A DNA stretch of 35,809 nucleotides from Acetobacteraceae bacterium (GTDB lineage Bacteria; Pseudomonadota; Alphaproteobacteria; Acetobacterales; Acetobacteraceae): positions 4,141 through 39,949 of the forward strand of contig PLTJ01000068.1 in assembly GCA_003164455.1 (NCBI GenBank), in the 5' to 3' direction. Shown piece by piece: positions 8,059-26,758 of this stretch. Each line of letters begins with the position of its first letter. Position 1 is the first letter of the stretch. The position numbers and the translations under genes were made by a program. The notes beneath the pieces were generated by a model that was not told the origin of the DNA, made no database searches, and worked only from the letters and a program-made list of their open reading frames with translations.

Positions 8059-8709
8059 TCACGCGGCGCAGGCGCGTTGCAGAAACAGTGCGCCTGCGGC
8101 CAGGCCGGCTTCGTCGATGCCGTGGCCGAGACGTGGGCAGAACAGGCTGTCGACGGCGAAACCGGCGGCGCGCAGCGCGCATTCCGCTGCGCGCGAGCGG
8201 GACGCCGGCACGACGTCGTCGGCCTCGCCGTGCACCAGCAGGATCGGCGGACGCGACTGCGTCTGTGCCAGCAGCTCCGGCGCGAGCAGGGCACCGGAGT
8301 AGGCGAGGATGGCGCGTGGCGTCACGGCCCGGCGCGGCCCGGCATGCAACACGATCATCGCGCCCTGACTGAATCCAACCAGCGCGCAAGCGTCACCGGG
8401 CAGGCCGAGTCGCGCCAGTTCCGCATCGAGGAAATCGTCGAGCAGCAGCGAGGCGGCGTCCGCTCCGGCCTGCATCTGCGCCGGCGTGCGGTTCCAGAGA
8501 GGGAACCATTGGCGGCCCATCGGCGCGGAGTCATACGGCTCGGGCGCATCGGGGGCGACGAAGGCGGCCTGCGGCAGGGCCGCCGCCCACGACGGGGCGA
8601 GGTCGATCAGGTCGTGCCCGTCGGCGCCGACGCCGTGGCAGAGCACGACCAGTTGCTCCGCCCGTCCCTGTTTAGGTCCCCAGCGTGGGCCGTCCAGCAT
8701 CGCCTGCAC
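8059..8709 (-). CDS. Alpha/beta hydrolase, phospholipase/carboxylesterase family
   Basis: 216 aa; LVVLCHGVGADGHDLIDLAPSWA, GFSQGAMIVLHAG, ILLVHGEADDVVP, LGHGID (Ser-Asp-His triad context). Confidence 0.88.
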   Translation of the reverse strand: MQAMLDGPRWGPKQGRAEQLVVLCHGVGADGHDLIDLAPSWAAALPQAAFVAPDAPEPYDSAPMGRQWFPLWNRTPAQMQAGADAASLLLDDFLDAELARLGLPGDACALVGFSQGAMIVLHAGPRRAVTPRAILAYSGALLAPELLAQTQSRPPILLVHGEADDVVPASRSRAAECALRAAGFAVDSLFCPRLGHGIDEAGLAAGALFLQRACAA

Positions 8710-8747
8710 TCCCGGTTGGCGGCTGCGGCCTGTATATCGGACCGCAC

Positions 8748-9754: not shown

Positions 9755-9768
9755 TAAGGGGTCCTTAA
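9755..9768. repeat. Putative attL: 14-nt direct repeat TAAGGGGTCCTTAA
   Basis: Exact copy of 25659-25672; the two copies bracket the integrase-containing segment. Confidence 0.65.
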
Positions 9769-9864
9769 AGGCGAATGAGGCGTAATACCATGTAATCGTT
9801 ATAATAATCTCCTAGACGCTCGGTTCTAGGTAACGTTTGTATAACGAGACGCCCGATGTGCTAG

Positions 9865-10317
9865 CCTTCACGCCGGGCACGGACAAGCCAAATTCCCAAA
9901 GGAAAATCCGTCCTGCGGCGCCGGCACCTGAGCGAGAGCCAGGCGGATATCACACCCCGTCCCGCAGCGTCTGCCGGCCTATCCCCGCCGTCCGCGCCGC
10001 TATCCCGCGGGTCACCCAGCCCTGCCGCCGCGCGCTACACCTTCGCTTGGTTGACGCATGCCTACGTCGACTTGGACCTTTATCCAAGCGGGACCGTTTC
10101 GAAAGTGCAGCACTGGGCTCGTCCCTTCAAGATCTACTTGAACGGGCGCTGGGTCAGCAGCGTTGGATGCCAGGGCACCCGTATAACCGGTGTCAGGGAA
10201 GAGAGGATTATCGCGGGCAACGATAGGCATGCCTATGCGGGTATTTGCGAGGCAACCATCGGGTTCGCCTTCCTGGATACGTTGCTACCGGATGCCACTC
10301 GGCTGGTGGCAAGATGA
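9865..10317 (+). other. Open frame with possible C-terminal coding content; no ATG or GTG start (TTG at 10051 or CTG)
   Basis: Frame open after TAG at 9862-9864; translation ends ...THAYVDLDLYPSGTVSKVQHWARPFKIYLNGRWVSSVGCQGTRITGVREERIIAGNDRHAYAGICEATIGFAFLDTLLPDATRLVAR. Confidence 0.35.
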
Positions 10318-10450
10318 TCGGGCTCGATCCCCGCCCCTGCGTTGGCGGCGATTCGGCTTGACATTGTGACGGGCACGGACCATTCGTGCCGCCCGTCGCT
10401 GTGCGCGGCCTCAGCTTCGAACGGCCGCTGCTTCGGAGCTGCTAGCCGCT

Positions 10451-13400
10451 ATGGAAGACAGCAGGGACTCCCCGACCGAAGCGGAGCCAAGTGATCGGGA
10501 GGAAGTGAAGACAGCTTCCCAGGGAGCGCCGCAGGCTCCAGGCTCCGTGTCCTTGTCGGCCACCGTTCTGCCCGCGATCAACGTGGCGCTCTGGGCCAAC
10601 CATGTTCCAGTGCTCTCCGAACTCAGCCTCGGAAACGACACCGCCGACCGCCTGGATGACGTGGAGATCGAGGTCGAGAGCATCCCGCCAGCGGTGCGGA
10701 GCCGAAGCTGGCGCCTCGCTCAGGTGAGCAGCGGCCAGATGTGCGTCCTCAAGGACCTCGACATCAAGCTTGATGGCCCCTGGCTTGCCAGCCTCACCGA
10801 GAGCGTCCGCGGCACCGTGATCTTCAGGGCCAAGTGCGGCGAGAGGCTGCTGGTCGAGGTCGAGCGGGAGGTCCGGTTCCTTGCCCATAACGAGTGGGGC
10901 GGATCCGCGGCCATTCCCGATGTGCTCGCGGCGTTCGTTGAGCCCAACGACCCTGCCGTGCCAGTGGTGCTACGCAAGGCATCCGACCTGCTGCGTGCCC
11001 AGAGCAAGCCGGACAGCCTGGAAGGCTATCAAGCGACATCGAAGCAGCGGCTGTGGGAACAGGCGGCAGCGATCTGGAGCGCGGTTTGCTCGCTCGACAT
11101 CCGTTACGTGAACCCGCCGCCATCCTTCGAGCGGGAAGGCCAGCGGATCAGGCCGCCGAGTCAGGTGCTGCATGAGCGGCTCGCGACCTGCCTCGATCTC
11201 GCCGTGCTGTTCGGCGCCTGCCTGGAGCACGTCGGCCTCCGCCCGCTGATCGTGCTCACCAAGGGCCACGCCTTCGCTGGCGTCTGGCTTTCGCGCCACG
11301 ACTTCGGGGCGTCCGTCGCGAGCGATGCGCCGAGCCTCCGCACCCGCCTCGCGCTGCACGATCTGCTGGTTTTCGAGACCACGCTGTGCTGTCAGTCCCC
11401 AGCCCCGGGGTTCAAGAGGGCCTGCGCCGCGGGCACCGAACGCGTTGCGGCGGAGTTCGACGGGGAGTTTGAGGGCATTGTCGATGTGATGCGTGCCCGC
11501 CAGCGGCGGATCTTGCCGATGGGGTCGGCCAGCGGCACCTACGCCCGCATCTCAATTCCCGGCGTCGCGGGCGATCTCCCGGAAGCGGGGCCGCCACAAA
11601 TCGAGGAGGCTCCTCCGCTTCGCGATGACGAGGACGAGCCCGATGCCGAAGCGGCCCCTGCCAGCGCCGCGGACCGCCTCGCCCGATGGCAGAAGCGCCT
11701 GCTTGACCTGTCGGGGCGCAACCGCCTCCTGAACCTGCGGGTGGGGGGCAAGCAGGCCCTCGCGATAGACTGCCACGATCCGGCCAAGCTCGAGGACGCG
11801 CTGGCGGGGATGCGCGGCGTCCCGAAGGCAGCCCCGTTCCGCTTCCAGCCATGGCCGGACCTAATGTCCGGCGCTGACCCGCGAAGCGCCGTGCTCCACC
11901 GCGATCGGATGAACGAAGCTGCGGACCGTGCCTTTGCCCGCGATGCCCAGGAAAAGCGCGAGCTCCTTGTCGCGCTGGACGAGGAGAAGCTCCAGGGGGC
12001 GCTGACCGAGCTCTACCGGACGGCGCGGGCCGCGGCGCAGGAGGGCGGAGCGAACACCCTCTTCTTGACGATCGGCGCTCTGCTCTGGAAGGCGAAGGGC
12101 AAGGACAAGCCCTACCGGGCGCCGCTTGTCCTGGTGCCGGCCATCCTGGAGCGCCCGAGCGTCCGCTCAGGCTTCCGCCTCCGCGCCCACGATGACGAGA
12201 CGCGCGTGAACTCCACGCTGCTGGAGATGCTCAAGGAGGAGTACGGGATCCGCCTGCCCGACATGGAAGCCGCCCTGCCCGAGGATGGTTCCGGCCTCGA
12301 CGTGAACGCGATTCTCGACGCGTTCCGGAGGCAGGTGCGGGAAATCCCCGGCTGGGAGGTGACCGAGGACATCGCGATCACCAACCTGTCCTTCACCAAG
12401 TACCTGATGTGGAAGGACCTGACCGATCGCGCGGACGAGCTGCGGGCGAACGAAGTTGCCCGCCGCCTGATGGACGGGGCGCAGGAAACGGATGCAGTGG
12501 AGCCGTCGTCCAGCCATGGTGGCGCCCATGAGGACTACGTCGGGGCCACCCTTGACGAAGATCCCATGCTTGCCACCCTTGCCTGCCCGATGGAGGCCGA
12601 TTCCTCGCAGCTGCGCGCCGTGGCGGCGGCCGCGCACGGCGAGAGCTATGTTCTGATCGGGCCGCCCGGCACGGGCAAGAGCCAGACGATCGCCAATATC
12701 ATCTCGAACACGCTCGCGCAGGGGCGCAGCGTGCTGTTCGTCGCCGAGAAGCGCGCCGCGCTGGAGGTTGTGCAGCGTCGTCTCCGCATGGCCGGGTTGG
12801 GCGATTTCTGCCTCGACCTTTTCTCGGTCAAGGCATCGAAGATGGCCGTGCTGGAGCAGCTCAACCACGCCCAGGAGGCCAGGGAGACCATCGATCCTGG
12901 CGAGTGGGCCACCGCCCATCAGGAGGGCGCGGATCTCCGCGCCGAACTCAATGGGTATGTCCGCGAACTCCATCGTCGAGGGCGGAACGGCTGGACGGCA
13001 TACCGGGCGATCGGCTGCATCCTCCGGGCCGAGACAGGCGGCGTGCCGGATGTCTCGCTTTCCTGGCCGGATGCCGACACCCACGATGCGGCCGCATACC
13101 AGAAACTGGTCGAAGCGGTCGAGGACGCGGCCGCCGTCTTCTCGCGCCTGAGCGACATCGCGGCATGCACGGCCCTCGTCGGGATCGATCGGCCCGAATG
13201 GTCGCCAAGCTGGCAAGCCGCGATCGTGGAGGCAGCGCGAGCCTCGGCCATGGCCCTCGGACACCTGCAGAAGGCGGCGGCGCCGGCGGTCCGCGCGCTG
13301 TCTCTCCCGGCGGAACTGCCGCTCACCCTCCAGGCGTTCCGCGCCATTGACGCCCTTGCGGGCATGCTCCTCGATCCGGCATCCCAGGAAGCGGCCTGGG

Positions 13401-16400
13401 CGCTGGCAAGCGGGTCCCAGGACACCCTGGACGCACTGCGGTCTGCCGCAGAGGTCGCGCGGGCTCACGCCGATCTGGCGAGCCGCCTGTCGACCCAATG
13501 GACCCCGGATGTGAAGGGCCTCCCCTTAACGTCCCTCCTGGCCGACTGGCGGGAGGCGGCCACACGTTGGTGGCCCGCGCGCCGATCCCGGCAAAAGGCG
13601 ATCCTGGAGCGCCTCCGCGCCGCCGCTGCGGATGTGCCCGAGGATCCGGTCCCCGACCTCCAGAAGCTTATCGCCATGGCAGCCAAGGAAGCAGAGCTAG
13701 GCGCCCTGGCGGAGCATCTCGCACCGACGCTCGGGCGGCGCTGGCGGGGCCTCCAGACAGATTTTTCACGCCTCGACGAAGCAGGCCAGAAGGCTACTGG
13801 CATCAGGGCCGCCGCGGCCGCCTGCGCGCCCGATCCCACAACGCTGCTCGCGCTCCGGGGGCACATCCAGCGGCTGCTCGGCGATGGCGCGGACCTCCTG
13901 GCCAATGCGGGTGCGGTGGGTGCCCCGCTCCAGCATTTCCGGGCCGCCTACGCCGAGGCGATGGCCAGCCTCGCCGCGCTGGCCCCGCTGTGCTGCGGGG
14001 AGCCCCAGTCCGCGGTGGAGGAATCGCGGGAGGACTGGGCGACCGCGCTCGCGGAGCACCTCGGTGGCTGGGTTAGGAACGCAAGGCTCCTGCGGGATTG
14101 GTGCGGATGGCGCGGGGTCACGCAGCGGGCCGAGTCCATCGGTCTCGCCCCCCTTCTCAGGGCCATGGAGAGCGGCAGCGTCGCCGTTGCCGACACGCCG
14201 CGGGTGTTCGAGGCGAACTACGCGCGCTGGTGGATCAGCGTGGCTGTGGACGACCTGCCACGCCTGCGCGCCTTCGTGGCGGCCGCGCACGAGCAGCGGA
14301 TCGAGCGCTTCCGCGCCCTGGACAAAAAGCTTCTCGACCTGTCGGCGCGGTTCGCCCGAGCGGGGGTGATCGCAGGCGTCCCTGGCGCCGCCGAGAGATC
14401 AGCAAGCTCCGAGTTCGCGGTGCTGACGCACGAGTTGGCCAAGCGCCAGCGGCACCTGCCAGTGCGGCAGCTTCTCAACCGGATGCCGCATGCTCTCCGG
14501 CGACTCACCCCATGCCTGATGATGAGTCCGCTTTCCGTCGCCCAGTATCTCCCGGCCAACGCGGCGCCGTTCGACCTCGTGATCTTCGACGAGGCGTCCC
14601 AGATTCCCACGTGGGACGCAATCGGCGCGATTGGGCGTGGCCGCCAGGTCATCGTGGCCGGAGACCCGAAGCAGCTCCCGCCGACGCGCTTCTTCGAGCG
14701 CGTCATTCCGGAGTCCGGGGAAAACAGCGAAGGCGAAACGGTGGAGGTCGACACCGAGGATCTCGAATCCATCCTGGACGAGTGCCGCGGGGCGGGCATC
14801 CGCAACATCGAGCTCACGTGGCACTACCGGAGCCGCTACGAGGCGCTGATTGCATTCTCGAACTACCAGTACTACGGCGGGCGGCTGGTCACCTTCCCGT
14901 CCCCCGTGGTCAAGGACACCGCGGTGTCCTATCGGCATGTCGCCGACGGTGTCTACGCGCGGGCGGGCGCCCGGACCAACCAGGCCGAGGCCCAGGCGGT
15001 CGTGGCAGAGGTCGTGGGCCATCTCCGCGCCATCGCGGATGGCGGCCCCGAAAAGTCGATCGGCATTGTCTCATTCAACGCCGAGCAGCAAGCGCTGATC
15101 GAGAACCTGCTCGACCAGGCCCGCCGCGACGACCCATCCATCGAGCGGTTCTTCTCCGAAGACCTCGCCGAACCCGTCCTGGTGAAGAACCTTGAAGGCG
15201 TGCAGGGCGAGGAGCGAGACGTGATCATCTTCTCGCTCACCTATGGACCGGACGTCACTGGGCGCGTGTCCATGAACTTCGGCCCCATGAACCAGTCCGG
15301 CGGCGAGCGCCGTCTGAACGTCGCGGTCACCCGGGCGCGAGAAGCGATGATCGTGTTCGGCAGCCTGCGGGCGGACCACATCGACCTGAACCGGACCTCC
15401 ACCTCCGCGGTGGGGGTTGCCCACCTCAAGCAATTCCTCGCCTATGCAGAGCACGGAGCAAGAGCGTTCGCCACGGCCGCCACCGGACCGCTCGGCGATT
15501 TCGAAAGCCCATTCGAGGCGGCCGTGGCCGAACGGCTCCGGAACCTGGGCTGGGTGGTGCACCCACAAATCGGAGTGTCTGGGTTCCGCGTTGATCTCGG
15601 CGTGGTGAATGTCGACGCGCCAGGGGCCTACCTCGCCGGCGTCGAGTGCGACGGCGCGACCTACCACCGCGCCGCCTCGGCCCGGGACCGGGACAGGCTG
15701 CGTCAGGCCGTGCTGGAGAACCTCGGCTGGCGGATCCTGCGCGTGTGGTCAACCGACTGGTGGACGAACGCCCGCAGGGAAGCCGATCGACTGCACGCGG
15801 TGCTCAATGAGATGCTCCACGCGGCCAGAGAGGCCCGGTCCGCCGTGCAAGAGGCGAGCACTGCCGCTGCTGGACATGAAGTCGCGCCGCAAAACGCCGC
15901 GGTGGCGGAATCCGCTGAAGAATTCGCGGCGTCCGGGGACACCGCGCCTGCCAGCGCGGCGCCGCCCGACCTCACCGCTGGGCTCGATCCCGAGCGCTTC
16001 TACGATATTGATTACGTTCCGCGCCTGACCACCCTGGTCGAGGTTATCCTGCGCGCCGAGGCTCCGATGCGCGACGAGCAGCTTGCCCAGCGTGTCGCCC
16101 GCGCACACGGTTTCCAACGCACGGGTCGACGCATCAGGGACGCCGTGTTTGCCCTTGTCCCCCGCGGCTGCGCAATCACCAAGGAGTCCGAAGCTGCATT
16201 CATCTGGCCGCCGAGCATTGCGCCCTCGTCTTGGTCGGTCTTCCGCGATCCGGGGCGGGGAGAGCAGCGTGACCCCGCGGACGTGCCCATCGAGGAACTG
16301 GCTGCGCTCGCGCGCCGTGTCCTCCATGGCGCCGCGGATGAGGAGGCGGCTCTTATCCTTATGCGCGACGCCTGTGGCTTGGCAAAGCTGCGCGACGCCA

Positions 16401-16453
16401 CTAGGGAGCGCTGCGAGGCGGCAATTCGGAAGGTAAGCGGCACTCTGATCTAG
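10451..16453 (+). CDS. DUF4011 / SF1 (COG1112-type) helicase / Vsr-like endonuclease / DUF3320 protein, Hhe-type anti-phage defence candidate
   Basis: 2000-aa ORF: DUF4011-like RLARWQKRLLDLSGRNRLLNLR; Walker A GPPGTGKS (12659-12682); Walker B LVIFDEASQIP and GDPKQLPP; SF1 C-terminal EGVQGEERDVIIFSLTYG and NVAVTRAREAMIVFGS; Vsr/MTES-like GVECDGATYHRAASARDRDRLRQAVLENLGWRILRVWSTDWW; DUF3320-like C-terminus. Confidence 0.88.
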   Translation: MEDSRDSPTEAEPSDREEVKTASQGAPQAPGSVSLSATVLPAINVALWANHVPVLSELSLGNDTADRLDDVEIEVESIPPAVRSRSWRLAQVSSGQMCVLKDLDIKLDGPWLASLTESVRGTVIFRAKCGERLLVEVEREVRFLAHNEWGGSAAIPDVLAAFVEPNDPAVPVVLRKASDLLRAQSKPDSLEGYQATSKQRLWEQAAAIWSAVCSLDIRYVNPPPSFEREGQRIRPPSQVLHERLATCLDLAVLFGACLEHVGLRPLIVLTKGHAFAGVWLSRHDFGASVASDAPSLRTRLALHDLLVFETTLCCQSPAPGFKRACAAGTERVAAEFDGEFEGIVDVMRARQRRILPMGSASGTYARISIPGVAGDLPEAGPPQIEEAPPLRDDEDEPDAEAAPASAADRLARWQKRLLDLSGRNRLLNLRVGGKQALAIDCHDPAKLEDALAGMRGVPKAAPFRFQPWPDLMSGADPRSAVLHRDRMNEAADRAFARDAQEKRELLVALDEEKLQGALTELYRTARAAAQEGGANTLFLTIGALLWKAKGKDKPYRAPLVLVPAILERPSVRSGFRLRAHDDETRVNSTLLEMLKEEYGIRLPDMEAALPEDGSGLDVNAILDAFRRQVREIPGWEVTEDIAITNLSFTKYLMWKDLTDRADELRANEVARRLMDGAQETDAVEPSSSHGGAHEDYVGATLDEDPMLATLACPMEADSSQLRAVAAAAHGESYVLIGPPGTGKSQTIANIISNTLAQGRSVLFVAEKRAALEVVQRRLRMAGLGDFCLDLFSVKASKMAVLEQLNHAQEARETIDPGEWATAHQEGADLRAELNGYVRELHRRGRNGWTAYRAIGCILRAETGGVPDVSLSWPDADTHDAAAYQKLVEAVEDAAAVFSRLSDIAACTALVGIDRPEWSPSWQAAIVEAARASAMALGHLQKAAAPAVRALSLPAELPLTLQAFRAIDALAGMLLDPASQEAAWALASGSQDTLDALRSAAEVARAHADLASRLSTQWTPDVKGLPLTSLLADWREAATRWWPARRSRQKAILERLRAAAADVPEDPVPDLQKLIAMAAKEAELGALAEHLAPTLGRRWRGLQTDFSRLDEAGQKATGIRAAAAACAPDPTTLLALRGHIQRLLGDGADLLANAGAVGAPLQHFRAAYAEAMASLAALAPLCCGEPQSAVEESREDWATALAEHLGGWVRNARLLRDWCGWRGVTQRAESIGLAPLLRAMESGSVAVADTPRVFEANYARWWISVAVDDLPRLRAFVAAAHEQRIERFRALDKKLLDLSARFARAGVIAGVPGAAERSASSEFAVLTHELAKRQRHLPVRQLLNRMPHALRRLTPCLMMSPLSVAQYLPANAAPFDLVIFDEASQIPTWDAIGAIGRGRQVIVAGDPKQLPPTRFFERVIPESGENSEGETVEVDTEDLESILDECRGAGIRNIELTWHYRSRYEALIAFSNYQYYGGRLVTFPSPVVKDTAVSYRHVADGVYARAGARTNQAEAQAVVAEVVGHLRAIADGGPEKSIGIVSFNAEQQALIENLLDQARRDDPSIERFFSEDLAEPVLVKNLEGVQGEERDVIIFSLTYGPDVTGRVSMNFGPMNQSGGERRLNVAVTRAREAMIVFGSLRADHIDLNRTSTSAVGVAHLKQFLAYAEHGARAFATAATGPLGDFESPFEAAVAERLRNLGWVVHPQIGVSGFRVDLGVVNVDAPGAYLAGVECDGATYHRAASARDRDRLRQAVLENLGWRILRVWSTDWWTNARREADRLHAVLNEMLHAAREARSAVQEASTAAAGHEVAPQNAAVAESAEEFAASGDTAPASAAPPDLTAGLDPERFYDIDYVPRLTTLVEVILRAEAPMRDEQLAQRVARAHGFQRTGRRIRDAVFALVPRGCAITKESEAAFIWPPSIAPSSWSVFRDPGRGEQRDPADVPIEELAALARRVLHGAADEEAALILMRDACGLAKLRDATRERCEAAIRKVSGTLI

Positions 16454-16548
16454 CGGGACCAGGCACCAGAACCGCAGAGTGAGGCGCTTGAGGTACGCCA
16501 ACCACGCCGCCGTCCAGCGCTACGCGCAGAAGGCGGCGCTGCTGGGCA

Positions 16549-16660
16549 ATGCGCGGAAACGTGGGGGGCTGTGTCATGCTGATCGTCCTATGCCTGTTCT
16601 TCCCGCCGGCCATCCCGTTCGTCATCCTCTACTATCTGTTCCGCGGCAGAGGGCAGCGGC
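16549..16660 (+). repeat. Diverged direct repeat, copy 1 (5' leader and TM-encoding segment)
   Basis: ATGCGCGGAAACGTGGGG...ATGCTGATCGTCCTATGC...CCCGCCGGCCATCCC...GGGCAGCGGC closely matches 17254-17369. Confidence 0.85.
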
Positions 16661-17226
16661 ACCTGTTTTTCGTTGCACTGCTTGTTTTGACCGGATGCGC
16701 CACCGCTGCGCAGCGCCAGCCACAGCAAGCCGGTGCAGCGATAGGAGAGACGCCAGCGCAGTTTAGAGCTTGCCTGACGGCGGTCATCACCAAGCCTGAG
16801 TACGCTTCGCTGCTTCCGCACACCCCTGATCTCACAACGGGTCTATCCACGGCGCAGTTGACCGATGAGACCTTTATTTCTCCGGAAGGCGCTAGACTCC
16901 TTATCGCCAGACATCGTGAAGTGAGTTCCTGCCAAACATACTGTTTGAATGCACTCTTGCCCGTGAGACCGGATATGGTCCCGATCTTGGCCGACGAGTA
17001 CACCAAAGAGACCGCCCTTTCGGTGCAGTTGGTCGAGCGGAAGATCACCTGGGGGGAAGGCGCGCGGCAGGGTCAGGCGGTAATGAGTGACTTAGCCAAG
17101 CTCATCGTCGCTGCTGACCGGCAGTGGTTTGTGCAGCGCCAGGCCGCGGGTGCCGCATTGATGCGGTGGTCGGCACAAGAGCAGTTAGCCCAGCAGCGGA
17201 TGATCGACGCGATGAGCCACCCGTGA
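16576..17226 (+). CDS. Hypothetical membrane/lipoprotein-like protein
   Basis: Hydrophobic N-terminus MLIVLCLFFPPAIPFVILYYLF, then LLVLTGCATAAQ lipobox-like segment. Annotated ORF starts at 16549; ATG at 16576 preferred because the paralogous gene starts at the same point. Confidence 0.65.
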   Translation: MLIVLCLFFPPAIPFVILYYLFRGRGQRHLFFVALLVLTGCATAAQRQPQQAGAAIGETPAQFRACLTAVITKPEYASLLPHTPDLTTGLSTAQLTDETFISPEGARLLIARHREVSSCQTYCLNALLPVRPDMVPILADEYTKETALSVQLVERKITWGEGARQGQAVMSDLAKLIVAADRQWFVQRQAAGAALMRWSAQEQLAQQRMIDAMSHP

Positions 17227-17253
17227 TGACCAATTGCGCGGTATTCGGCTCGA

Positions 17254-17369
17254 ATGCGCGGAAACGTGGGGAGGAGACTGTGCCATGCTGATCGTTCTTT
17301 GCATCGTCTTCCCGCCGGCCATCCCCTTCGTCATCCTCTACTACCTGTTCCACGGCGGCGGGCAGCGGC
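17254..17369 (+). repeat. Diverged direct repeat, copy 2
   Basis: See copy 1; differs by a few substitutions and a net 4-nt insertion before the second ATG. Confidence 0.85.
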
Positions 17370-18979
17370 GCCGGCTGATCCAGCTCCAGGCGCGGACCAC
17401 CGTGGCCGCGGAGCGGCTGGCGGGCATCGAGCCCCCACCTGCGATGCCGTGGTGGCGGTGGGTTATGGTTGGGATGATCGTCATTGCATCCGTGATCGGA
17501 GTTATTGTTTCGCGAGTGCATCACGGAGAGGATACCACTGCACCAGCGCAGGCAGATCAGGCTAAGAACACCGTACAACCTCACCCTGCCGCAGCAGCCC
17601 CAGAGCGATTTGTGACCGCTGATGATTTCCCGACGGTCGAGCAGGTTCCGGTGACGGCAACCGTCGGCTCCGGCCGTGCGATCGGCCCGAGCTTCGACTG
17701 CAATACCGAGCAGACGCCGGAGGCGCAGTTCATCTGCGCCAGCCCCGACCTGTCCCGAACCGAGCTGGAATTCGTGCAGGCATACTACGCGTTGCGGCAG
17801 CAGGTGGGGCCGGCCGGCTGGCAAGTCCTGAAACGGGAAAATCTTGATTCACAGCACCGAACCGAGGTGCAGTGCGGAATCGCCCCGTCAGGCGCACTCC
17901 CACCCGATGCCGTGGCGCTCGCCGCGTGCCTGCGGCAGGGCTACGTGGCGCAGCGGTCCCTCTGGCTGGCGCGTCTGAGTGGTGCTGCGCGGGAGGAAGC
18001 CAGCCGTCCCGTCGAACAGCACGTGGCATTGCAGCGCGATCTCCAGGCGTTGGGCTTCCTCCCACCGACAGCGACCATAGACGGCGTGTATGGGGCGGCG
18101 ACCCGGACCGCCATCTCGGCATGGCAGCGCGCGAACAACCAGCCCGATACCGGCTTCATCAGCAACACCGACGCGGGTCTGTTGACGAATACGGACCGTT
18201 CGACGGCATCTGTTGCCGCACCCACGCCATCGGCAACTCAGCCGTCAGCCGCCTTCCAGCAGGGACTTGCGGACCGGCAGGGTTGGGAGGATTGGTTCGG
18301 CAGTCAGACGGGAGACTATCTTGCCGGCGCCGAGTATTGGGCGTCGCAACGAAGCGAACGTCATCCAGGCCCGTGCGTGAGGACAGACGGCAACACTGCT
18401 TGGGTGGCAGGTTGCCGCGAGGCGCACGGTCGCCTCGCTCCGACCGATGCCCGTCGTCTCAGCGAGCCTGAATACCGGTCAGGATGGAACGCCTTCGAAG
18501 AGCCGGTCGCGGTTCCTCAGGCTCCTCCGCTGCCACCACGCGGCGCCCCGGCTGCGGCGATTGCCTTGCCCCTGGCCGGACTTCCCGCTCACGGGGAGAA
18601 CCTACGCATGGTTGCCGCCCGGTTCGGCCGGCTCGGTTTGTTCGGGTGGGGCGGTGGGGCGCTCGTTTGCCCAACTGTCGACGCTGGACGCCTCGCCCTG
18701 GACCTGATGACGGAGGACTACCGACAACATCTCATCTATCGGGCTCTGGGCAAGGTTGCCACCGAGATGCATGGCCCCGCCCCCACGGCCCACTTCGATC
18801 CGGCCAGCCTGGGCTGTGTGATTGTGCCTCCAGGCACCCCGCTTGAGCACAACACGGCTCTGCCATTCTTCCATGTAAGCGGCCAGTTGCCCGACGGGCA
18901 GGTTTTCAGTGGCCAAGCGGCAGTGGGGACGTTCGTGTTCGAGGCTCCCACCGCTGGCAACGCCCCACCAGGACGGTAG
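17285..18979 (+). CDS. Membrane-anchored protein with LprI/DUF1311-like and peptidoglycan-binding domains
   Basis: N-terminal TM MLIVLCIVFPPAIPFVILYYLF; SFDCNTEQTPEAQFICASPDLSRTELEFVQAYYALRQ (LprI/DUF1311-like); LQRDLQALGFLPPTATIDGVYGAATRTAISAWQRAN (PG_binding_1-like). Confidence 0.75.
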   Translation: MLIVLCIVFPPAIPFVILYYLFHGGGQRRRLIQLQARTTVAAERLAGIEPPPAMPWWRWVMVGMIVIASVIGVIVSRVHHGEDTTAPAQADQAKNTVQPHPAAAAPERFVTADDFPTVEQVPVTATVGSGRAIGPSFDCNTEQTPEAQFICASPDLSRTELEFVQAYYALRQQVGPAGWQVLKRENLDSQHRTEVQCGIAPSGALPPDAVALAACLRQGYVAQRSLWLARLSGAAREEASRPVEQHVALQRDLQALGFLPPTATIDGVYGAATRTAISAWQRANNQPDTGFISNTDAGLLTNTDRSTASVAAPTPSATQPSAAFQQGLADRQGWEDWFGSQTGDYLAGAEYWASQRSERHPGPCVRTDGNTAWVAGCREAHGRLAPTDARRLSEPEYRSGWNAFEEPVAVPQAPPLPPRGAPAAAIALPLAGLPAHGENLRMVAARFGRLGLFGWGGGALVCPTVDAGRLALDLMTEDYRQHLIYRALGKVATEMHGPAPTAHFDPASLGCVIVPPGTPLEHNTALPFFHVSGQLPDGQVFSGQAAVGTFVFEAPTAGNAPPGR

Positions 18980-19079
18980 AGGCGAGCTGTGTCCATGGCG
19001 CGGGGTAGCTCAGCCCCATGGCGCGGGCGCGTTATTGCGCTGAAATTCCGCGGATCGGCATTGTGTGCGCCGCTACAGC

Positions 19080-19343
19080 TTACACCACCTCGCACAACCG
19101 CGCCGTGCTGGCCTTCAACCGCGCGATCAGCGCCCGCAGCGCGCGAGCCTCGGCACTGCGGCCACCGTGAACCGTCCGGGCCGCGGCCAGCCGGGCCAAC
19201 CCCTCGGCGGTGCGCGGGCCGGTGCTGCAACCCCCATGAAGCCGGCATCGGCCGTTGGGCATAGGCCATCGGCGGCACGGCGTTCCTGCCCGCGTGCGGG
19301 CACCACAGCGGCCTTCCACGGGGTTTTGCGCCCGATCCGGCAT
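19080..19343 (-). CDS. HGGxSTG domain-containing small protein
   Basis: 87 aa; CGARTRAGTPCRRWPMPNGRCRLHGGCSTGPRTAEGLARLAAARTVHG. Confidence 0.8.
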   Translation of the reverse strand: MPDRAQNPVEGRCGARTRAGTPCRRWPMPNGRCRLHGGCSTGPRTAEGLARLAAARTVHGGRSAEARALRALIARLKASTARLCEVV

Positions 19344-19346
19344 GGC

Positions 19347-19985
19347 TTACCCCTCCCCCCTGCCAGGGACGCCAGTGCCGGCCGACACGGCGCCGACGAT
19401 GGCCTGCCCGCCGTCCTGCACCACTACCCGCTCGACCCGCACCACCTGCGGCCCCTTGCCGCGCTTGCGGGCGATGGCGTCGAGCATCTCGGTCATGCCA
19501 CGCGCGAGATTGGCGCCGTCCCTGCGCAGCTTGCTGGCGATGTCGAAAGGCTGATCCGGGATCATTGCCCGGCGGAAACACTCCATGGCGCCGAAGTGCA
19601 GCGCGGTAGCTTGCGCGGCCAACATGCCCTCGATCTCGTCCTTGGGCTTGAACGCCATGAGTGCGGCCATAACCGCGCGGCTGCGTTGATCCTGCCCGTC
19701 ATGCTCGCCACCGGGAACCCTTATCGTCCCCAACGTCTCGCGCAGGATGACGCTGTTGAACTCTGTCACCCAGGACCCGCCTATCTTGCGGAACGGGTTG
19801 GCGTCCACTTCGGCTTTCACCATCGGGGCACTTGGCCCTGGTTCGGCCGAGACGCGCAGCTTCAGCGCCTCAGCCGGCCGCGGCGGGGTCGTGGCGGGCA
19901 CAGGGGCACCAGGTGCGGCGACAGCACCGGCCGCGCGCGCGCGCCGCTGGGGGATGGAAGCGGCTGGATCGGTCAAGGCGTACAT
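19347..19985 (-). CDS. Hypothetical protein, mobile-element associated
   Basis: ORF annotated to 20117, but the ATG at 19985 (MYALTDPAASIPQ) has AGGAG just upstream (minus strand ACAGGAGATG). Ends 3 nt before the HGGxSTG gene. Confidence 0.65.
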   Translation of the reverse strand: MYALTDPAASIPQRRARAAGAVAAPGAPVPATTPPRPAEALKLRVSAEPGPSAPMVKAEVDANPFRKIGGSWVTEFNSVILRETLGTIRVPGGEHDGQDQRSRAVMAALMAFKPKDEIEGMLAAQATALHFGAMECFRRAMIPDQPFDIASKLRRDGANLARGMTEMLDAIARKRGKGPQVVRVERVVVQDGGQAIVGAVSAGTGVPGRGEG

Positions 19986-20130
19986 CTCCTGTCCAGACGG
20001 TCCCGCTGGGGTGTGCCCGGGGGGGTGGCGAGGCGCGGAAGCATCGCGAAGCTGGAGAGCAGCGGCGCGGCGCGGCGATTTCCAGCGGCGATGTGCGTCC
20101 GGTGGCCAGAAGGACACTCGGTTGCCGGAG

Positions 20131-20242
20131 GGCCGGGGGCGGTTAGGTTAGCCTGGGTTACCCTTGCCAAGCGCTGTACGGAACTGGCAATGTAAGTTCC
20201 ATGGTACTGCTGGACAGGGTAACCCAGGCTAACCCCTCGGCC
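20131..20242. repeat. Long inverted repeat with 19-bp perfect arms and GGTTA iterations
   Basis: GGTTAGCCTGGGTTACCCT (20146-20164) and exact reverse complement AGGGTAACCCAGGCTAACC (20216-20234), with outer GGCCG/CGGCC. Confidence 0.95.
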
Positions 20243-20262
20243 ACAGCCCCTCCCATTGGCCA

Positions 20263-21930
20263 TCACTTTGGCACAGCCTCCAGCTTCCACTTGGTGGCGC
20301 TGTGCGCGGTGCCGTCCACCGCGAACCGGTAGGGCGACCCGTCGGCTCCGCAGGACACGATGCGTTGTGCGTTCTTTTTCAGCCATTCCCCCAACCGGGT
20401 TGGGCTGATGTATTCTGCCCCCTGGCCGGCCGCGACGGCGCGGAGCGCATCCCGCAGTTCGGGGTGCGCCGGGTCGCCTTCATCGCCAAACGCGGCTCCC
20501 CTCGGCAACGTTTCCTGCGCCTTCTGGCGCACGTCGCGGACCAGCACCCCTTTGTCTGCGCCGATGGCTTCCAGCCACGCCGCCGCGACCGCGCGCAGGG
20601 CGGCCAGCTTCGGGTCATGGCCACGGGTGCGCTCCATGACATCGCAGGGATCGGCCTCGCCCAACCATGTTAGCGCCGAGCGCACCATCTTGGACCAGAC
20701 CTCGAACGACCCGAGCGGCGTCTCGGTCGGGCGCTCGCCGGACATCGCATAGGCGCGGATGACGGTCAGGGCCTTGACGATCAACATAGGGCGTGCCCGC
20801 TTAGCCAACGCCACCGGATCGAACTTGAAGTCGCGCAACTCAGGGCGCTCGACATGGGGGTCAATCCGGCCGACCAGGGCGCGCCGGGTCAGGTCGCCAA
20901 CCAGGACCAAGTTGTTACCGGTGGCCGCAAGGAAGAACGTGTTCGGGACCATCACATTCTTGCTGCCCCCCAGGGGTCGGATGTTGACCAGAGGCTGCGT
21001 CAGCAGTTGACACAGCAGCTCGCCGCCGAGTGGGTGGTCGGTGTTGTCGATTGTGATCACCGCATGGCCGGCCAGCACCAACGCGACCACCCGCTTTTCC
21101 AACTCGGCGTCGCCATATTTATCGTGGCCGGTGGAGGTGACCGCTGCTTCGTGCCCTGTCGCGATGATCGACGCGACGTCAACAATCTTACTTTTGCCGC
21201 TGCCGGCGGTCGGTCCGTCAAAGGTGTGCATCGGCGCAGTCGGGATCGAGCAGCGTACAGCCGCCGTCAGGACGGCCGACAGTGCTACCGACTCGTCGGC
21301 CTTGGTCTCGAATTCGTATCCACGGAACAGTCGTTTGATTGAGGCGAGCGCTTTCCGCGCCACCTCCTTATCCGGGTGCTCAGGGACCTGGGCGAACCGC
21401 ACGCCGAGGGGGTTGAACAACAGGCCCGTCGCGGTGTCGTAACCCGGCGTTTCGATGATGGACATGTCCGGCCGGAAGGTCGGCGCGGTGGTCACGGCAA
21501 GCAGCGGTCGGAGGCGCCAGTCGCCGTCGCGCGCGAGGTAGGCCTCGGCAACAAGCCGCGGGCAGTCGCACGGCACGGAGTCACCCGCCCTGCCATCAAA
21601 TTTCTCGAAGCGAGCCGCACGCATAAACTGTTCTATCAGAGCGGCGGGTTCCACCGCCGCAAGGCGCGGCGCATCGGCGGTGCCCCCGCCGGATATCTTG
21701 ATCTTGTCGATAATCACATGGACAACTCGGCCACCGCTTTGGAAGATGTCGCCCGCTGCCTGAACGAGCGCAGCTTCTGCCTCATCGACTACGCGGGGCA
21801 GCCCCCCCGGTGTCACGTTGACCACGGGCAGGTCCGGATCTGTCGCGGGTGCCGGACGCTTCTTCTTGCCGCGTTGCGCCCGCCCCTCGGCCAGGTTGAT
21901 GATATTGGATTCCTCGGTCATCGCCGACAC
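20263..21930 (-). CDS. Phage/plasmid-type AAA+ ATPase (replicative helicase-like)
   Basis: 555 aa; Walker A FDGPTAGSGKSKIVDV, acidic block AVITIDNTDHP, PNTFFLAATGNNLVLVGDLTRRALVGRIDPHVERPELRDF; overlaps the upstream prim-pol gene by 13 nt. Confidence 0.75.
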   Translation of the reverse strand: MSAMTEESNIINLAEGRAQRGKKKRPAPATDPDLPVVNVTPGGLPRVVDEAEAALVQAAGDIFQSGGRVVHVIIDKIKISGGGTADAPRLAAVEPAALIEQFMRAARFEKFDGRAGDSVPCDCPRLVAEAYLARDGDWRLRPLLAVTTAPTFRPDMSIIETPGYDTATGLLFNPLGVRFAQVPEHPDKEVARKALASIKRLFRGYEFETKADESVALSAVLTAAVRCSIPTAPMHTFDGPTAGSGKSKIVDVASIIATGHEAAVTSTGHDKYGDAELEKRVVALVLAGHAVITIDNTDHPLGGELLCQLLTQPLVNIRPLGGSKNVMVPNTFFLAATGNNLVLVGDLTRRALVGRIDPHVERPELRDFKFDPVALAKRARPMLIVKALTVIRAYAMSGERPTETPLGSFEVWSKMVRSALTWLGEADPCDVMERTRGHDPKLAALRAVAAAWLEAIGADKGVLVRDVRQKAQETLPRGAAFGDEGDPAHPELRDALRAVAAGQGAEYISPTRLGEWLKKNAQRIVSCGADGSPYRFAVDGTAHSATKWKLEAVPK

Positions 21931-22733
21931 CTCCGGGCTTCGCGTTTACAGATCGAGTCAACGACGCGCGTCAGCTCGTCGTTATCCAGCGAGGGCCGGC
22001 AGCGGGCCGCATTCCACATCCGCATCACGTCAAGAACCAACAGCGGGTCCACCCAGTGCCGAAGCAGATACCCGGTAAGCTGCGCGACTGCTGCGTTGCG
22101 GGTGCCTTGTGTCGCCCCGGCCGCGAACAGGTCCCGGTGCCGCTCGGGCGAGGCAACGGTAGCGCCCGCCGGCCCGCTACCGCCGGCTTGCTGAGCGGCC
22201 AGCAGCAGCCACGGTGGCGCATGCCCGACGGCAACCACCTCCGGCCCATGGCCTGGGTGCCAGCGGTAGCAACCACCGTTAGGGTGGACAGACGGCGGCG
22301 CGACCACGTAGCCGCCATCGGAACGCACGTCGATGCCCGGCGCGAACTTGCCGACACTGTTCCGGATGCCGGGCGCGCCAGCGAAGTAGAGGTGCCAGCC
22401 GCCCCCGCCGGTGGTGGCCACGACCGTCTCGCCGACGCCGCCGTGCTCGCGTCGCAAGTCGGCGAAGGACACGTCGCCGCCGTGCCGCGGATCGCCGTCT
22501 ATGACGAACAGGTTGCTTACTGAGCCTGTGGCGATGCCGACGTTGGCGGCCGGGTATTCGGTCCACCAGCGCCGGATCGCCGCCTCGTCCGTGGTGGCGT
22601 CCAGGCACCCGCGCCCACCGCGTTCCTTGGCGATGAACGGCAGCTTGCTGCGCACACCCAGGGGGAAGACCGCCCACCCAAGCGCGGCATAGCCGAGCGC
22701 CGCGTCGAGGTGCGTCGTCTTGCCGCCGCTCAT
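21918..22733 (-). CDS. Bifunctional DNA primase/polymerase (prim-pol domain)
   Basis: 271 aa; ALGYAALGWAVFPLGVRSKLPFI, WWTEYPAANVGIATGSVSNLFVIDGDPRHGG, TTGGGGWHLYFAGAPGIRNSVGKFAPGIDVRSDGGYVVAPPSVHPNG. Confidence 0.92.
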   Translation of the reverse strand: MSGGKTTHLDAALGYAALGWAVFPLGVRSKLPFIAKERGGRGCLDATTDEAAIRRWWTEYPAANVGIATGSVSNLFVIDGDPRHGGDVSFADLRREHGGVGETVVATTGGGGWHLYFAGAPGIRNSVGKFAPGIDVRSDGGYVVAPPSVHPNGGCYRWHPGHGPEVVAVGHAPPWLLLAAQQAGGSGPAGATVASPERHRDLFAAGATQGTRNAAVAQLTGYLLRHWVDPLLVLDVMRMWNAARCRPSLDNDELTRVVDSICKREARRCRR

Positions 22734-22948
22734 AGTGGTCGCGCCGCCTGACGCACATCTTCCTGGCGCGACGCCGACGGTGGCGCGGGGTAAGGTTGGG
22801 CCTGTAAAAGGAACATTTTCGGAACCTCGGTGACTTTTGAGATCCCAGCGCGGTCTTCACTTTCGGGCGGCGGCGCGGTAAACTTGGTTGTTTCCAGTTG
22901 CTTCCAAGCCTGCCGCTTCGCCCTAACCGTCCACGCTGGGGCGAAGTT

Positions 22949-23347
22949 TTATGCGGCGACGACGACGACCGGCTCCACGACCTTCCGTGGCCTGCCGCTC
23001 CGCCCGCTCGCCTTGCAGGCCGTCGTACCGGGAAAGGTGCGTCCAGCCGGTGCGTCGTTCGTTCCCTGCCGCGGCAGCGACTCTCTGAATGCCTCGATTT
23101 CGCTCCGCAACCAGAAGACCCGCGAGCCGACGTATCGGCCGGGCGCTAGCTTGCCCTCCCGCACCATTTTCCAGAGCGTGGGGTAGGAGGAGTGCAGCAG
23201 GAGGCACGTCTCCGCCTTCGTAACGAGCGGGTCTTCACCGGCCCATGCCGCGGTCGGCGCGAGCACGCCGACACCGGCCGGGTGATCCAACATGCCGCCC
23301 GCGGCGGTAGGCGCAGTCGGCGCGGTCGACTCCATCACCTTGGACAT
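22949..23347 (-). CDS. Helix-turn-helix (AlpA/excisionase-like) protein
   Basis: 132 aa; DPLVTKAETCLLLHSSYPTLWKMVREGKLAPGRYVGSRVFWLRSEIEAFRESLP is an AlpA-like wHTH. Confidence 0.75.
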   Translation of the reverse strand: MSKVMESTAPTAPTAAGGMLDHPAGVGVLAPTAAWAGEDPLVTKAETCLLLHSSYPTLWKMVREGKLAPGRYVGSRVFWLRSEIEAFRESLPRQGTNDAPAGRTFPGTTACKASGRSGRPRKVVEPVVVVAA

Positions 23348-23353
23348 TGCGAA

Positions 23354-23384
23354 ATTCCCGGTTAGTTAATGACTGGCCGGGAAT
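23354..23384. promoter_or_regulatory. Candidate operator upstream of HTH gene
   Basis: 8-bp inverted repeat ATTCCCGG (23354-23361) / CCGGGAAT (23377-23384), 7 nt from the HTH start codon. Confidence 0.45.
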
Positions 23385-23471
23385 GTATTTACTGCGCCGC
23401 GCACATGCGACCGCAAAGTCATGCCGAAAATACCTAGAATATCGGCCGACTTTAGGCAAGTCATCAGGGTC

Positions 23472-23594
23472 CGTACGGGGCTCCTCCCGTTGGTTCCGGC
23501 TGCTGGCTGCTAGCTACCAGATGTGGTAGCTGATCGGCCTATTTTACATGAATATGGTGGGCACCGGAGCCAACGGGAGGAGCTGCTCCGTACG
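23472..23594. repeat. Nested imperfect palindrome, about 120 nt
   Basis: Outer arms 23472-23499 and 23564-23594 (CTCCTCCCGTTGG / CCAACGGGAGGAG core); inner hairpin AGCTACCA (23512-23519) / TGGTAGCT (23524-23531). Confidence 0.9.
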
Positions 23595-24243
23595 CGACGA
23601 GCCTTGTAATGCGGCACAGCGCGCCAAGCATCTGCGGGTGGATGGTTTCCACGATCCGCTCGACGAACTGCATTGCGGCGCTTGAGGCGAGGGGCCGACC
23701 GTGCTTCGGGTCGGAAGGAGTCCATCCCCAACTAAACTTCTTGCCCGTCGTCTGTTCCCAGATGTGGCGCAGCTCCTTTACGAATTCCAACAGGCGGCGG
23801 CTGATCGGCGTTTCCTCTTCCTTCCGCGGCCTCCCCTTGGGCCGCTGGCCGCGGCGTTGCACGTCGAGCGCCGCGCGGCGGACAGCCTCCGTCTCGCGGG
23901 TCAGCGCGTCCAGGCGATCCACGGCAGTAATGATCGGATCACCCGAGGGATCATCATCGCCCCTCGCCAGCGAAAGGGCTAACGGCACGAAGTTGCGTTC
24001 ATCCCTCAGAAGCTCCAAGGCCGCACCGAGTCTCTTTGCCAAATCATCCAGGTCTTCGCCCGCCCAGTCGTCGGCCGTCTTGTGCGCGTCTGTGGTGTAG
24101 GTCACCGCTGCGATGTACGCGTCCACTGCCTTGCGCAGAGAATTGCGCAGGGCATCGCGATCGTGGATGTTGAACTTGGACGCCAGCGCGGCCACCAGCG
24201 CCGTCAGGTCGTTGTCTGTGATATCTCGCGGCGCCGCCGTCAC
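23539..24243 (-). CDS. Hypothetical protein translationally coupled to integrase
   Basis: 234 aa; start codon overlaps the integrase stop (24240-24243). Confidence 0.7.
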   Translation of the reverse strand: MTAAPRDITDNDLTALVAALASKFNIHDRDALRNSLRKAVDAYIAAVTYTTDAHKTADDWAGEDLDDLAKRLGAALELLRDERNFVPLALSLARGDDDPSGDPIITAVDRLDALTRETEAVRRAALDVQRRGQRPKGRPRKEEETPISRRLLEFVKELRHIWEQTTGKKFSWGWTPSDPKHGRPLASSAAMQFVERIVETIHPQMLGALCRITRLVAYGAAPPVGSGAHHIHVK

Positions 24244-25499
24244 GCCCGCAACTCCACCACGTTTCCCCCGGCCACGCGTCCGATGAGGGTCATGATCCGC
24301 CGCGTCACCGCCTCCTGGATCTTCTGATTCTCATCTGCGTATTGGTGCTGATCATACACATCGGCGATGCCGCCCTCCCGGTGATTCTGGATTCTGTTCA
24401 TCGCGTCGCGGCCAAAGCCGAGGCTGGTGATCATGGTGCCATGCGTCCGGCGCAAGTCGTGCGGCGTCACCTTGTCCGGCGCGAGGATGCCCAGGGCAGC
24501 GCACGTGTCCCGCATCGCGCCGTCCAGGCCCGCCACCGCCCGCGCGCCGCGCTCATCAGCCGGGAAGGCGAAGCCGGTCTTCGCTTCACCGACCTCGGCC
24601 AGTAGGTCCAGGACCGGTGCGGTCAGCCAAACCCTGTGTCCGGCGCCGTTCTTGGTGCCCGGCCAGCCAAGTGCGAGGTCCGGGTCGCCGGGCAGTTCCC
24701 ACCACCCGCCGCTGATATGTTCGCGGCGCATACAGGAGACCTCGCCCGGCCGTTGCCCGGTCAACAAGATTGTTTTCAGGGCCGCGCTGCGAACAAGCCC
24801 GGCCCTGTCGAACTCCGCCCAGAACCGCGGCAGTTCGGATTCGCTCAACACCCGCTCCCGTGATTTGGTCGCGTTGCGCGTCACGCCGTGACAGGGGTTC
24901 ACCGCGATATCGCCGAGCTCCTCCCTGATCGCCCAGGCGAAGATGGCGCTTGCCGAAGCAAGCACTTGGTTTGCCATCACAGGCGCACCGCCCTCGGTCA
25001 GCTTCCGGACGACCGCGCGGACATCGCCGCGTGTGACGTCGCGAGCGCGCAGCTTGCCCCACCGGGGAAGCAAATGCTTCGTCACCAACGCGTCGGCCTG
25101 CCGCCAGGATTTGTTGCCTCCCGGGCGCTTGGCGTGTTCCAGGTAGCGGGCGGCCACGTCCTGGAAGGTCTCGGCCCTGGTGCCGCGCAGCTTCTCGGCC
25201 TGCGGGTCCGTCCCGCGCGCCACCTGCCCCAGGAGGTCACGCGCCCGGTCGCGCGCGTCGGCGAGGCCAATCGCATCCGCCCGACCAATCGTGAACACTC
25301 GCAGCCGGCCGCCGGCCCGGTAGGTGAACCTCCAACTCCTGCTCCCGCTGGGCTGCACGGCCAGAGCGAGGCCGGGCGCTATCGCGTCCCAGAAGAGCAC
25401 GCGGTCGGGTCCCGGGGCGACGGACCGAATAAACCGGTCGCTGAGCCGAAGCTTGTTAGGCTGCCTCGGCGGTGACCCGTCTCGTCGGGGTCGTGGCAT
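24240..25499 (-). CDS. Tyrosine recombinase / phage integrase (P4-type, DUF4102-like N-terminus)
   Basis: 419 aa; LFWDAIAPGLALAVQPSGSRSWRFTYRAGGR N-terminus; catalytic TGQRPGEVSC, HDLRRTHGT, NHREGGIADVYDQHQY. Confidence 0.95.
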   Translation of the reverse strand: MPRPRRDGSPPRQPNKLRLSDRFIRSVAPGPDRVLFWDAIAPGLALAVQPSGSRSWRFTYRAGGRLRVFTIGRADAIGLADARDRARDLLGQVARGTDPQAEKLRGTRAETFQDVAARYLEHAKRPGGNKSWRQADALVTKHLLPRWGKLRARDVTRGDVRAVVRKLTEGGAPVMANQVLASASAIFAWAIREELGDIAVNPCHGVTRNATKSRERVLSESELPRFWAEFDRAGLVRSAALKTILLTGQRPGEVSCMRREHISGGWWELPGDPDLALGWPGTKNGAGHRVWLTAPVLDLLAEVGEAKTGFAFPADERGARAVAGLDGAMRDTCAALGILAPDKVTPHDLRRTHGTMITSLGFGRDAMNRIQNHREGGIADVYDQHQYADENQKIQEAVTRRIMTLIGRVAGGNVVELRA

Positions 25500-25657
25500 G
25501 GTCGGTCTCCGTATAACGCTGGGGTAACAGAGCGGCCTTAATGAACCCTAATACACCTTAACGCGGATTAACAGGGAAAACCGCGCAACCGACGGAGTTA
25601 CCGATGTTTTTTGCGCATCAAAAATAGCAGGCAAACAGGGGCAAACGGGCGCGCTTG

Positions 25658-25673
25658 TTAAGGGGTCCTTAAC
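25658..25673 (+). promoter_or_regulatory. Candidate CtrA box upstream of motB
   Basis: TTAA-GGGGTCC-TTAAC, a full match to the alphaproteobacterial CtrA consensus TTAA-N7-TTAAC, about 45 nt upstream of the motB start. Confidence 0.55.
25659..25672. repeat. Putative attR: 14-nt direct repeat TAAGGGGTCCTTAA
   Basis: Exact copy of 9755-9768, between the integrase gene and motB. Confidence 0.65.
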
Positions 25674-25717
25674 CGCGTGAACGCAGGATAGTCACCGGTT
25701 TCGGATGGTGATCGGCG

Positions 25718-26758
25718 ATGAGCGGCAAGCGGCGATCGGGCGACAAGTCGGCGCTGATCGTGATCAAGCACGACGGTGGGGAGGATGCCGAGCACCACGG
25801 CGGCGCCTGGAAGGTGGCCTATGCCGATTTCATGACCGCCATGATGGCGTTCTTCCTGCTGATGTGGCTGCTGAACGCCACCACGGAGGCGCAGAAGCAT
25901 GGCCTTGCCGACTATTTCTCGCCGACCGCCTCGCTGATCCACTCCGTGTCAGGCACTGGTCTGCCGTTCGGTGGCCGTACGCCGTTCGACAACGGCGCCA
26001 TGGTCTCCGACCAGGGTGCCATGAGCGTCATGCCGGCCAACTCGGTCGCACCGCCCGACCCCGACGAAGACGATTCGGATGCCTCGACGGAGCCGGTCCA
26101 CCCGAACAGCCTCCAAAACTCCGGCCTGGAGCAAGGCACCGCGAGCGGCAATGCGGCGGTTGCCGGGCCACAATCCGGCATCCAGGCGCCCGGCGGCGGC
26201 CCGGCGCTGACCGAGGCGGCAGCGCCGCCGACACAGGCGCAGACCGCCGGGTTGCTGCGGGCCGAGCAGGAGCATCGCCAGGCGGCGGCGTTCCAGGAAG
26301 CTGCCGAGCAGATCCGCCAGGCCGTGCTCGCCGACCCGCAATTGGTCACGCTCGCGAGCCAGCTTGCCATCGACGTGACGCCGGAGGGGTTGCGCATCCA
26401 GATCCTGGACGAGGACCACCGGCCGATGTTCGACTCAGGGTCTTCCGTGTTGCTGGACCGCGCCCACGCACTGCTGCTGAAAGTCGCCCCCGTACTGGCG
26501 AAGCTGTCGGAAGGCATTGCCATCTCAGGCCATACCGATGCCGCGCCTTATCGCGGCGGCGACAAGTCGAACTGGGAGCTTTCCACCGAGCGTGCCAATG
26601 CCACCCGCCGGCTGTTGGTCGAGGCAGGGCTGCAGGATTCCCGTTTCCGCAGCGTGTCGGGGAATGCCGACCGTGATCCATTGCTGCCGGCCGATCCGTT
26701 CGCCGCGGCGAACCGGCGGATCACCATCGTGGTGTTGCGGTCCGCGCCGAGAAACTGA
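25718..26758 (+). CDS. motB: Flagellar motor protein MotB
   Basis: AWKVAYADFMTAMMAFFLLMWLLNAT plug/TM segment; OmpA-like ISGHTDAAPYRGGDKSNWELSTERANATRRLLVEAG. Confidence 0.95.
   Translation: MSGKRRSGDKSALIVIKHDGGEDAEHHGGAWKVAYADFMTAMMAFFLLMWLLNATTEAQKHGLADYFSPTASLIHSVSGTGLPFGGRTPFDNGAMVSDQGAMSVMPANSVAPPDPDEDDSDASTEPVHPNSLQNSGLEQGTASGNAAVAGPQSGIQAPGGGPALTEAAAPPTQAQTAGLLRAEQEHRQAAAFQEAAEQIRQAVLADPQLVTLASQLAIDVTPEGLRIQILDEDHRPMFDSGSSVLLDRAHALLLKVAPVLAKLSEGIAISGHTDAAPYRGGDKSNWELSTERANATRRLLVEAGLQDSRFRSVSGNADRDPLLPADPFAAANRRITIVVLRSAPRN

Follow-up and report, generated by a model that had tools for sequence, protein, structure and literature searches.

The preference of integrases for tRNA genes and conserved coding ends is generally attributed to the conservation of these targets. 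The locus analysed here, a window of 35,809 nt from an Acetobacteraceae genome, carries an integrase gene at the edge of a putative island that ends just before the flagellar gene motB, and raises the question of what such an enzyme might recognize at a site of this kind.

Delimitation and gene content of the island

An earlier note on this DNA had proposed that the segment between gluQRS and motB is an integrated island, inserted at an intergenic, non-tRNA site and bounded by a perfect 14-nt direct repeat, with the caution that a 14-mer could be repeated by chance. The repeat, TAAGGGGTCCTTAA, is indeed exact and delimits 15,904 bp (Table 1). It has no third exact copy across the 3.9-Mb assembly and does not occur elsewhere in the window at up to two mismatches. 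The caution was well placed, as direct repeats of 14 nt or more number 26 in the window (6-15 in Markov shuffles) and the repeat by itself is therefore weak proof; repeats with at least eight A/T, like TAAGGGGTCCTTAA, were found in none of 20 Markov shuffles. The deciding evidence for the island consists of empty sites in relatives and arm-type repeats at both ends, which are independent of the repeat and bear out the proposed boundaries. No tRNA or tmRNA was found in the window, in agreement with the site described in the note, and an Rfam search gave no match. The G+C profile of the window reveals no contrast between island and flanks, so that composition-based finders would miss the island.

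Table 1. Positions of genes and attachment-site features in the window.
Feature	Position	Strand	Remarks
gluQRS	8685..9599	+	left chromosomal neighbour; tRNA-synt_1c
attL core	9755..9768	+	14-nt direct repeat TAAGGGGTCCTTAA, gluQRS side; context ATAA-GGGGTCC-TTAAA
P-side arm-type pair GTTATACAAACGTTA	9831..9845	-	77 nt from core
cargo, 2000-aa DUF4011-helicase-MTES_1575 nuclease-DUF3320 protein	10451..16453	+	PADLOC PDC-S37, Hhe
small membrane-leader protein, 225 aa	16549..17226	+	5' region recurs at next gene
PG_binding_1 protein, 581 aa	17234..18979	+	
hypothetical protein, 256 aa	19347..20117	-	
replication ATPase-like protein	20263..21930	-	phrog_29234, DNA polymerase/primase C-terminal type
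primase-polymerase	21918..22733	-	Prim-Pol + PriCT_1
AlpA/excisionase-like helix-turn-helix protein	22949..23347	-	HTH_17; phrog_66 excisionase
hypothetical protein, 234 aa	23539..24243	-	
tyrosine integrase, 419 aa	24240..25499	-	Arm-DNA-bind_3, Phage_int_M, Phage_integrase
P'-side arm-type pair GTTACCCCAGCGTTA	25514..25528	-	144 nt from core
extra pair GTTAATCCGCGTTA	25559..25572	-	+100; G1014 has one at +99
full CtrA-type box TTAA-GGGGTCC-TTAACC	25658..25674	+	re-formed at attR; points at motB
attR core	25659..25672	+	second 14-nt repeat copy, motB side
motB	25718..26758	+	target gene
motA	26768-27634		follows motB

The left flank encodes UxuA, a mannitol dehydrogenase, a TPR protein and GluQRS, and the right flank MotB, MotA and transporters. 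Within the island, integrase residues R250, K283, H347, R350, H373 and Y382 are invariant in an alignment with four homologues, leaving the catalytic R-K-H-R-H-Y set intact, and the AlpA/excisionase-like protein is a candidate directionality factor. The Prim-Pol and replication ATPase-like reading frames lie on the same strand with a 13-nt overlap, and may represent a split or translationally coupled gene, because homologous profiles describe longer single proteins. In two neighbouring membrane-leader genes, the 5' ends share exact matches of 19, 19 and 17 nt (16548-16634 versus 17253-17343), spaced ~705-709 nt from each other, which points to a tandem duplication. The cargo protein matches the PADLOC profiles of two defence candidates, PDC-S37 (1230 bits; residues 406-1995 on positions 6-1533 of 1550) and Hhe (580 bits), and shares only 48% identity with its closest plasmid homologue. 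On the basis of these profile matches, it is a candidate anti-phage gene.

The layout of the island, with an Arm-DNA-binding integrase at one end, an AlpA-type regulator, a Prim-Pol module, cargo at the other end and a flanking direct repeat, resembles that of tyrosine-integrase islands and P4-like elements. The integrase, AlpA-type regulator and primase are also traits of phage satellites (PICI or P4-like), an identity that was set aside for want of a packaging or capsid-interference gene, PHROG and Pfam searches having found no terminase small subunit or sid/psu-type gene among the nine island proteins. The element was likewise judged not to be a known phage or plasmid, given that the integrase had no match in the plasmid collection at E 1e-40 and that all its matches in the phage collection fell below 60% identity (24-29% among the matches listed). 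A family search of 250 genomes at E 1e-60 returned no copy of the element besides that in the window.

Empty sites before motB

In a genome of the same genus (G003), gluQRS adjoins motB without the island, and the junction, GAATAAGCCATCCTTAACCGCG, falls at the predicted position. The site before motB in two further relatives from that genus (G004 and G005) reads GGATAAGGGCTCCTTAACCGCG, identical at 21 of 22 bases to the predicted attB, GGATAAGGGGTCCTTAACCGCG. WTAAG-N4-CCTTAACC occurs a single time in each of these three genomes, always before motB, and GGATAAG stays on the gluQRS side and CCTTAACCGCG on the motB side, which is exactly what integration demands. Checked for the island genes as a syntenic core and for a junction lying elsewhere, the relatives favour the island reading of the earlier note. 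In G004 and G005, gluQRS lies at a distance of ~2.7 kb, beyond another gene; because the far side of the motif is thus occupied by a different gene, the site can be assigned to motB. The note had overlooked this point, and also that the insertion site has the sequence of a CtrA operator, one that an entire clade of integrases appears to use. The first half of the motif in the three relatives without the element is ATAA, not TTAA; in G006 the box has degenerated, and in G001 none could be seen before motB.

The CtrA motif has been given as TTAA-N7-TTAA (PMC9437464; PMC4287350) and as TTAA-N7-TTAAC (PMC7200025), and flagellar genes are CtrA-controlled in all alphaproteobacterial orders studied, Rhodospirillales included (PMC8116508). 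The attR sequence, TTAAGGGGTCCTTAACC, fits TTAA-N7-TTAA(C), and TTAA-N7-TTAAC occurs in the assembly of the window only at the motB junction and at one other place. Using a Caulobacter CtrA probe, orthologues were found in 9 of 11 genomes at E 1e-70, those of G004 and G005 being 59-60% identical to the probe; at this threshold none was found in the assembly of the window itself (G000, 81% complete) or in the incomplete assembly G003. No wide CtrA regulon emerged from a genome-wide motif scan in the genus, with 1-4 strict WTAA-N7-TTAACC sites per genome, mostly not before recognizable motility genes. Separately, TTAATCCCGACTTAAC is identical in two species of the genus (G000:C283:550-565, L038; G001:C1:1150504, L116), the G001 copy lying ~260 nt before a reading frame that by eye resembles sigma-32 (rpoH).

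A conserved box upstream of related integrases

The integrase and seven relatives (45-56% identical to it) make up a clade in eight alphaproteobacterial genomes: the window, G632 and G633 (a Rhizobiales MAG and a Bradyrhizobium strain), G258, G1014, G961, G703 and G744. The last four were sampled after the hypothesis had been formed and served as prospective tests. A TTAA-N7-YTAA box lies upstream of int in all eight, at -173 in the window (TTAAGGACCCCTTAAC), -155 in G633, -166 in G258, -174 in G1014, -172 in G961 and -176 in G703 and G744. The G632 box is at -389, with ~215 nt extra between arm pair and int start and a box-to-arm distance that is still 144 nt. One of the four prospective genomes presents strict TTAA-N7-TTAA and three present TTAA-N7-CTAACC on the island side, the island-side half being CTAA, not TTAA, in three elements at the ftsK locus. 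Spacers vary (GGGGTCC, CGGCGCC, TCGGGTC, GCGTGCC, CGCCGGA, GATGCCG) while the half-sites keep their sequence, and TTAACC is oriented toward the host gene in all elements.

Across ~327 kb (window, 36 kb; other seven genomes, 291 kb), TTAA-N7-YTAAC is restricted to att sites except in G1014, which has a second box at -74 from int and where the pattern also appears once between core and int. Genome-wide, strict sites number 33-56 per 4.6-9.2 Mb in G632, G633 and G258, and the chance of a strict site within 450 nt of int is ~0.3% each; since it was the window that first drew attention to the motif, multiplication of these chances is a guide only. Targets adjoining the box include motB, an aminotransferase-ftsK operon and, in G258, a bactofilin gene (the order-level search around G258 covered one genome); the G1014 box precedes an Asp/Asn hydroxylase gene by 335 nt.

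Five elements, including that of the window, carry the box as a direct repeat with copies 11-37 kb apart: 32.4 kb in G632 (TTAAGGCGCCGTTAAC), 37.0 kb in G961, 28.7 kb in G703 and 11.4 kb in G1014 (TAATCCGGCGTTAA, 14 nt as in the window). No second copy was seen in G633, G744 or G258, where contig ends intervene; in G633 the scan covered 25 kb. Sequence past the second G632 copy resembles the int-side end of an attP. Right behind the far att copy of G703 lies a second, truncated clade integrase accompanied by a box and arms of its own (G703:C67:233850-235088, L069), which we interpret as the remnant of a tandem insertion at the same site.

Four elements have inserted in front of the aminotransferase gene; in L046, ftsK and lolA come next after this gene. 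TTA[AG]-N7-TTAAC precedes this gene in 26 of 27 genomes (L085-L111); it is present in 22 of the 23 that lack an element at the locus, 18 of which have strict TTAA-N7-TTAAC (counts tallied by hand from search output). The G670 site, TGGTTAATCGGGTCTTAACCTCG, is the attB implied by the G961 ends. The strongly conserved box is a candidate CtrA site of this operon; the CtrA targets of Caulobacter include ftsK (PMC4287350). The far flanks of G961, G703 and G1014 shared no genes with empty ftsK loci in tblastn searches, so that no far-side synteny was seen there.

Arm-type sites and a circular contig

The attP order common to the clade is a GTTA-N7-GTTA pair, the box, a second pair and int. The P-side pair is found at -76/-77 in the window, G632, G961 and G703, and the P'-side pair at +143/144 in these four and in G744, and at +133 in G633. 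The P side of G1014 carries an imperfect pair, and no P' pair was detected in G258 by the GTTA-N7-GTTA pattern. The extra pair in the window (GTTAATCCGCGTTA) is a candidate second arm site or CtrA-like site. The window copy may itself be mobile, in which case an excised circle would be expected from the island ends to carry the junction TTGTTAAGGGGTCCTTAAAGGCG.

Scans of viral contigs for clade integrases returned only L062 and L063. L063 (IMGVR_UViG_3300018083_001367) is circular, measures 9,759 bp with a 123-nt terminal repeat, and has arm pairs at -87 and +118 around a half-matching core (GGTTAATTTTGGGGTAGCC) that keeps one box half only; we take it to be a member of the clade in its excised or free state. 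No N7-spaced box was found in L062 (8.2 kb). Both contigs combine clade integrases with primase/VapE genes, and small reading frames near one end resemble terminase small subunits by eye, with no Pfam match. The two contigs are possible phage satellites.

A proposed attachment site in CtrA-type operators

The recurrent association of integrase, box, direct repeat and arms makes it likely, in our judgement, that the integrase put the 15.9-kb element into a CtrA-type operator before motB, with the CtrA half-sites acting as integrase half-sites and the N7 spacer as crossover. The core-type half-sites of the clade, TTAA and TTAA(C), would then be the halves of the CtrA box, bound by both integrase and CtrA, and the 7-bp spacer would constitute the overlap region, which must match between attP and attB. 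Because attP would bring its own TTAA half and the same spacer, a complete TTAA-N7-TTAACC would be left at the gene-side junction, and at motB integration would convert ATAA-N7-TTAACC to the full consensus. With a full box regained on the gene side, the promoter would retain its operator. A change of spacer would redirect the element to another CtrA promoter (motB, the ftsK operon, bactofilin). Several observations tell against the proposal: no CtrA hit at E 1e-70 in G000 and G003, the ATAA half at motB and the degenerate or unseen box in G006 and G001, the CTAA halves of three ftsK-locus elements, the three elements with one box copy seen, and the half box of L063 and missing N7 box of L062. 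More speculatively, and as a possibility that we advance with reserve, CtrA and the integrase may compete or cooperate at the same half-sites, gating recombination according to whether CtrA occupies the site, and so according to cell-cycle stage or motility state, and a change in the 7-bp attP spacer alone might let the clade roam the CtrA regulon.

The clade could instead merely favour short AT-rich inverted repeats in promoters, their likeness to CtrA boxes being incidental. Imperfect inverted repeats are common in the core sites of tyrosine integrases, and the failure to find a CtrA gene in the 81%-complete assembly of the window at E 1e-70 also fits such a preference. We nonetheless consider it improbable: the N7 spacing and the gene-facing TTAACC recur in unrelated promoters with different spacers, the targets include motility genes and ftsK, which are CtrA targets elsewhere (PMC8116508, PMC4287350), and the site at the ftsK locus is kept in nearly all genomes without the element (22/23).

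The distance of the box from int (155-176 nt upstream for all elements but one of the eight), the second G1014 box at -74, and the existence of phages known to carry CtrA sites (PMC9437464) would all suit boxes that are CtrA-controlled promoters of the integrase or other element genes and not attachment sites. The same box, however, stands at the far end of five elements and in genomes without any element, and arms flank it on both sides, which makes an exclusively promoter role very improbable; the two roles could coexist. We give practically no credence to the idea that the repeat is accidental and borders an ordinary piece of chromosome, with the real island ends elsewhere: the abundance of direct repeats in the window (26 of at least 14 nt) would accommodate it, but it is already contradicted by the fit of the empty sites to the predicted junction (21/22 bases), by the uniqueness of the repeat in the assembly and by arms at -77 and +144, as in relatives.

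Relation to known systems and implications

Insertion into a CtrA-type operator, as proposed here, would distinguish the island from tyrosine-integrase islands and P4-like elements that have a tRNA gene or coding-gene end as target. Integrases that target tRNA genes restore the tRNA end, and restoration of the operator is proposed as a parallel. The dusA-targeting integrases (PMC4482086) likewise form one family with one conserved chromosomal target in many species, whereas the target of this clade would be a regulatory site present at many promoters, so that its members occupy different genes. Alphaproteobacterial phages examined for lytic deferment (PMC9437464) are also mobile elements with TTAA-N7-TTAA in CtrA hosts; their CtrA sites regulate phage genes, and a term search of that report found no use as attachment sites, whereas in this clade the box is a proposed recombination site. 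No report of a CtrA box serving as attachment site was found in the openly licensed literature, which is not proof of absence.

With the finding, the use of transcription-factor operators as attachment sites becomes open to direct testing, and the sites of the clade suggest where to seek islands missed by tRNA-based and composition-based finders. The clade integrases possibly have a programmable 7-bp overlap. If the proposal is true, the CtrA operator represents a different solution to the choice of a target, one that every CtrA-using host would offer at many of its promoters; the target would stay functional after insertion, and the regulator occupying it could gate recombination.
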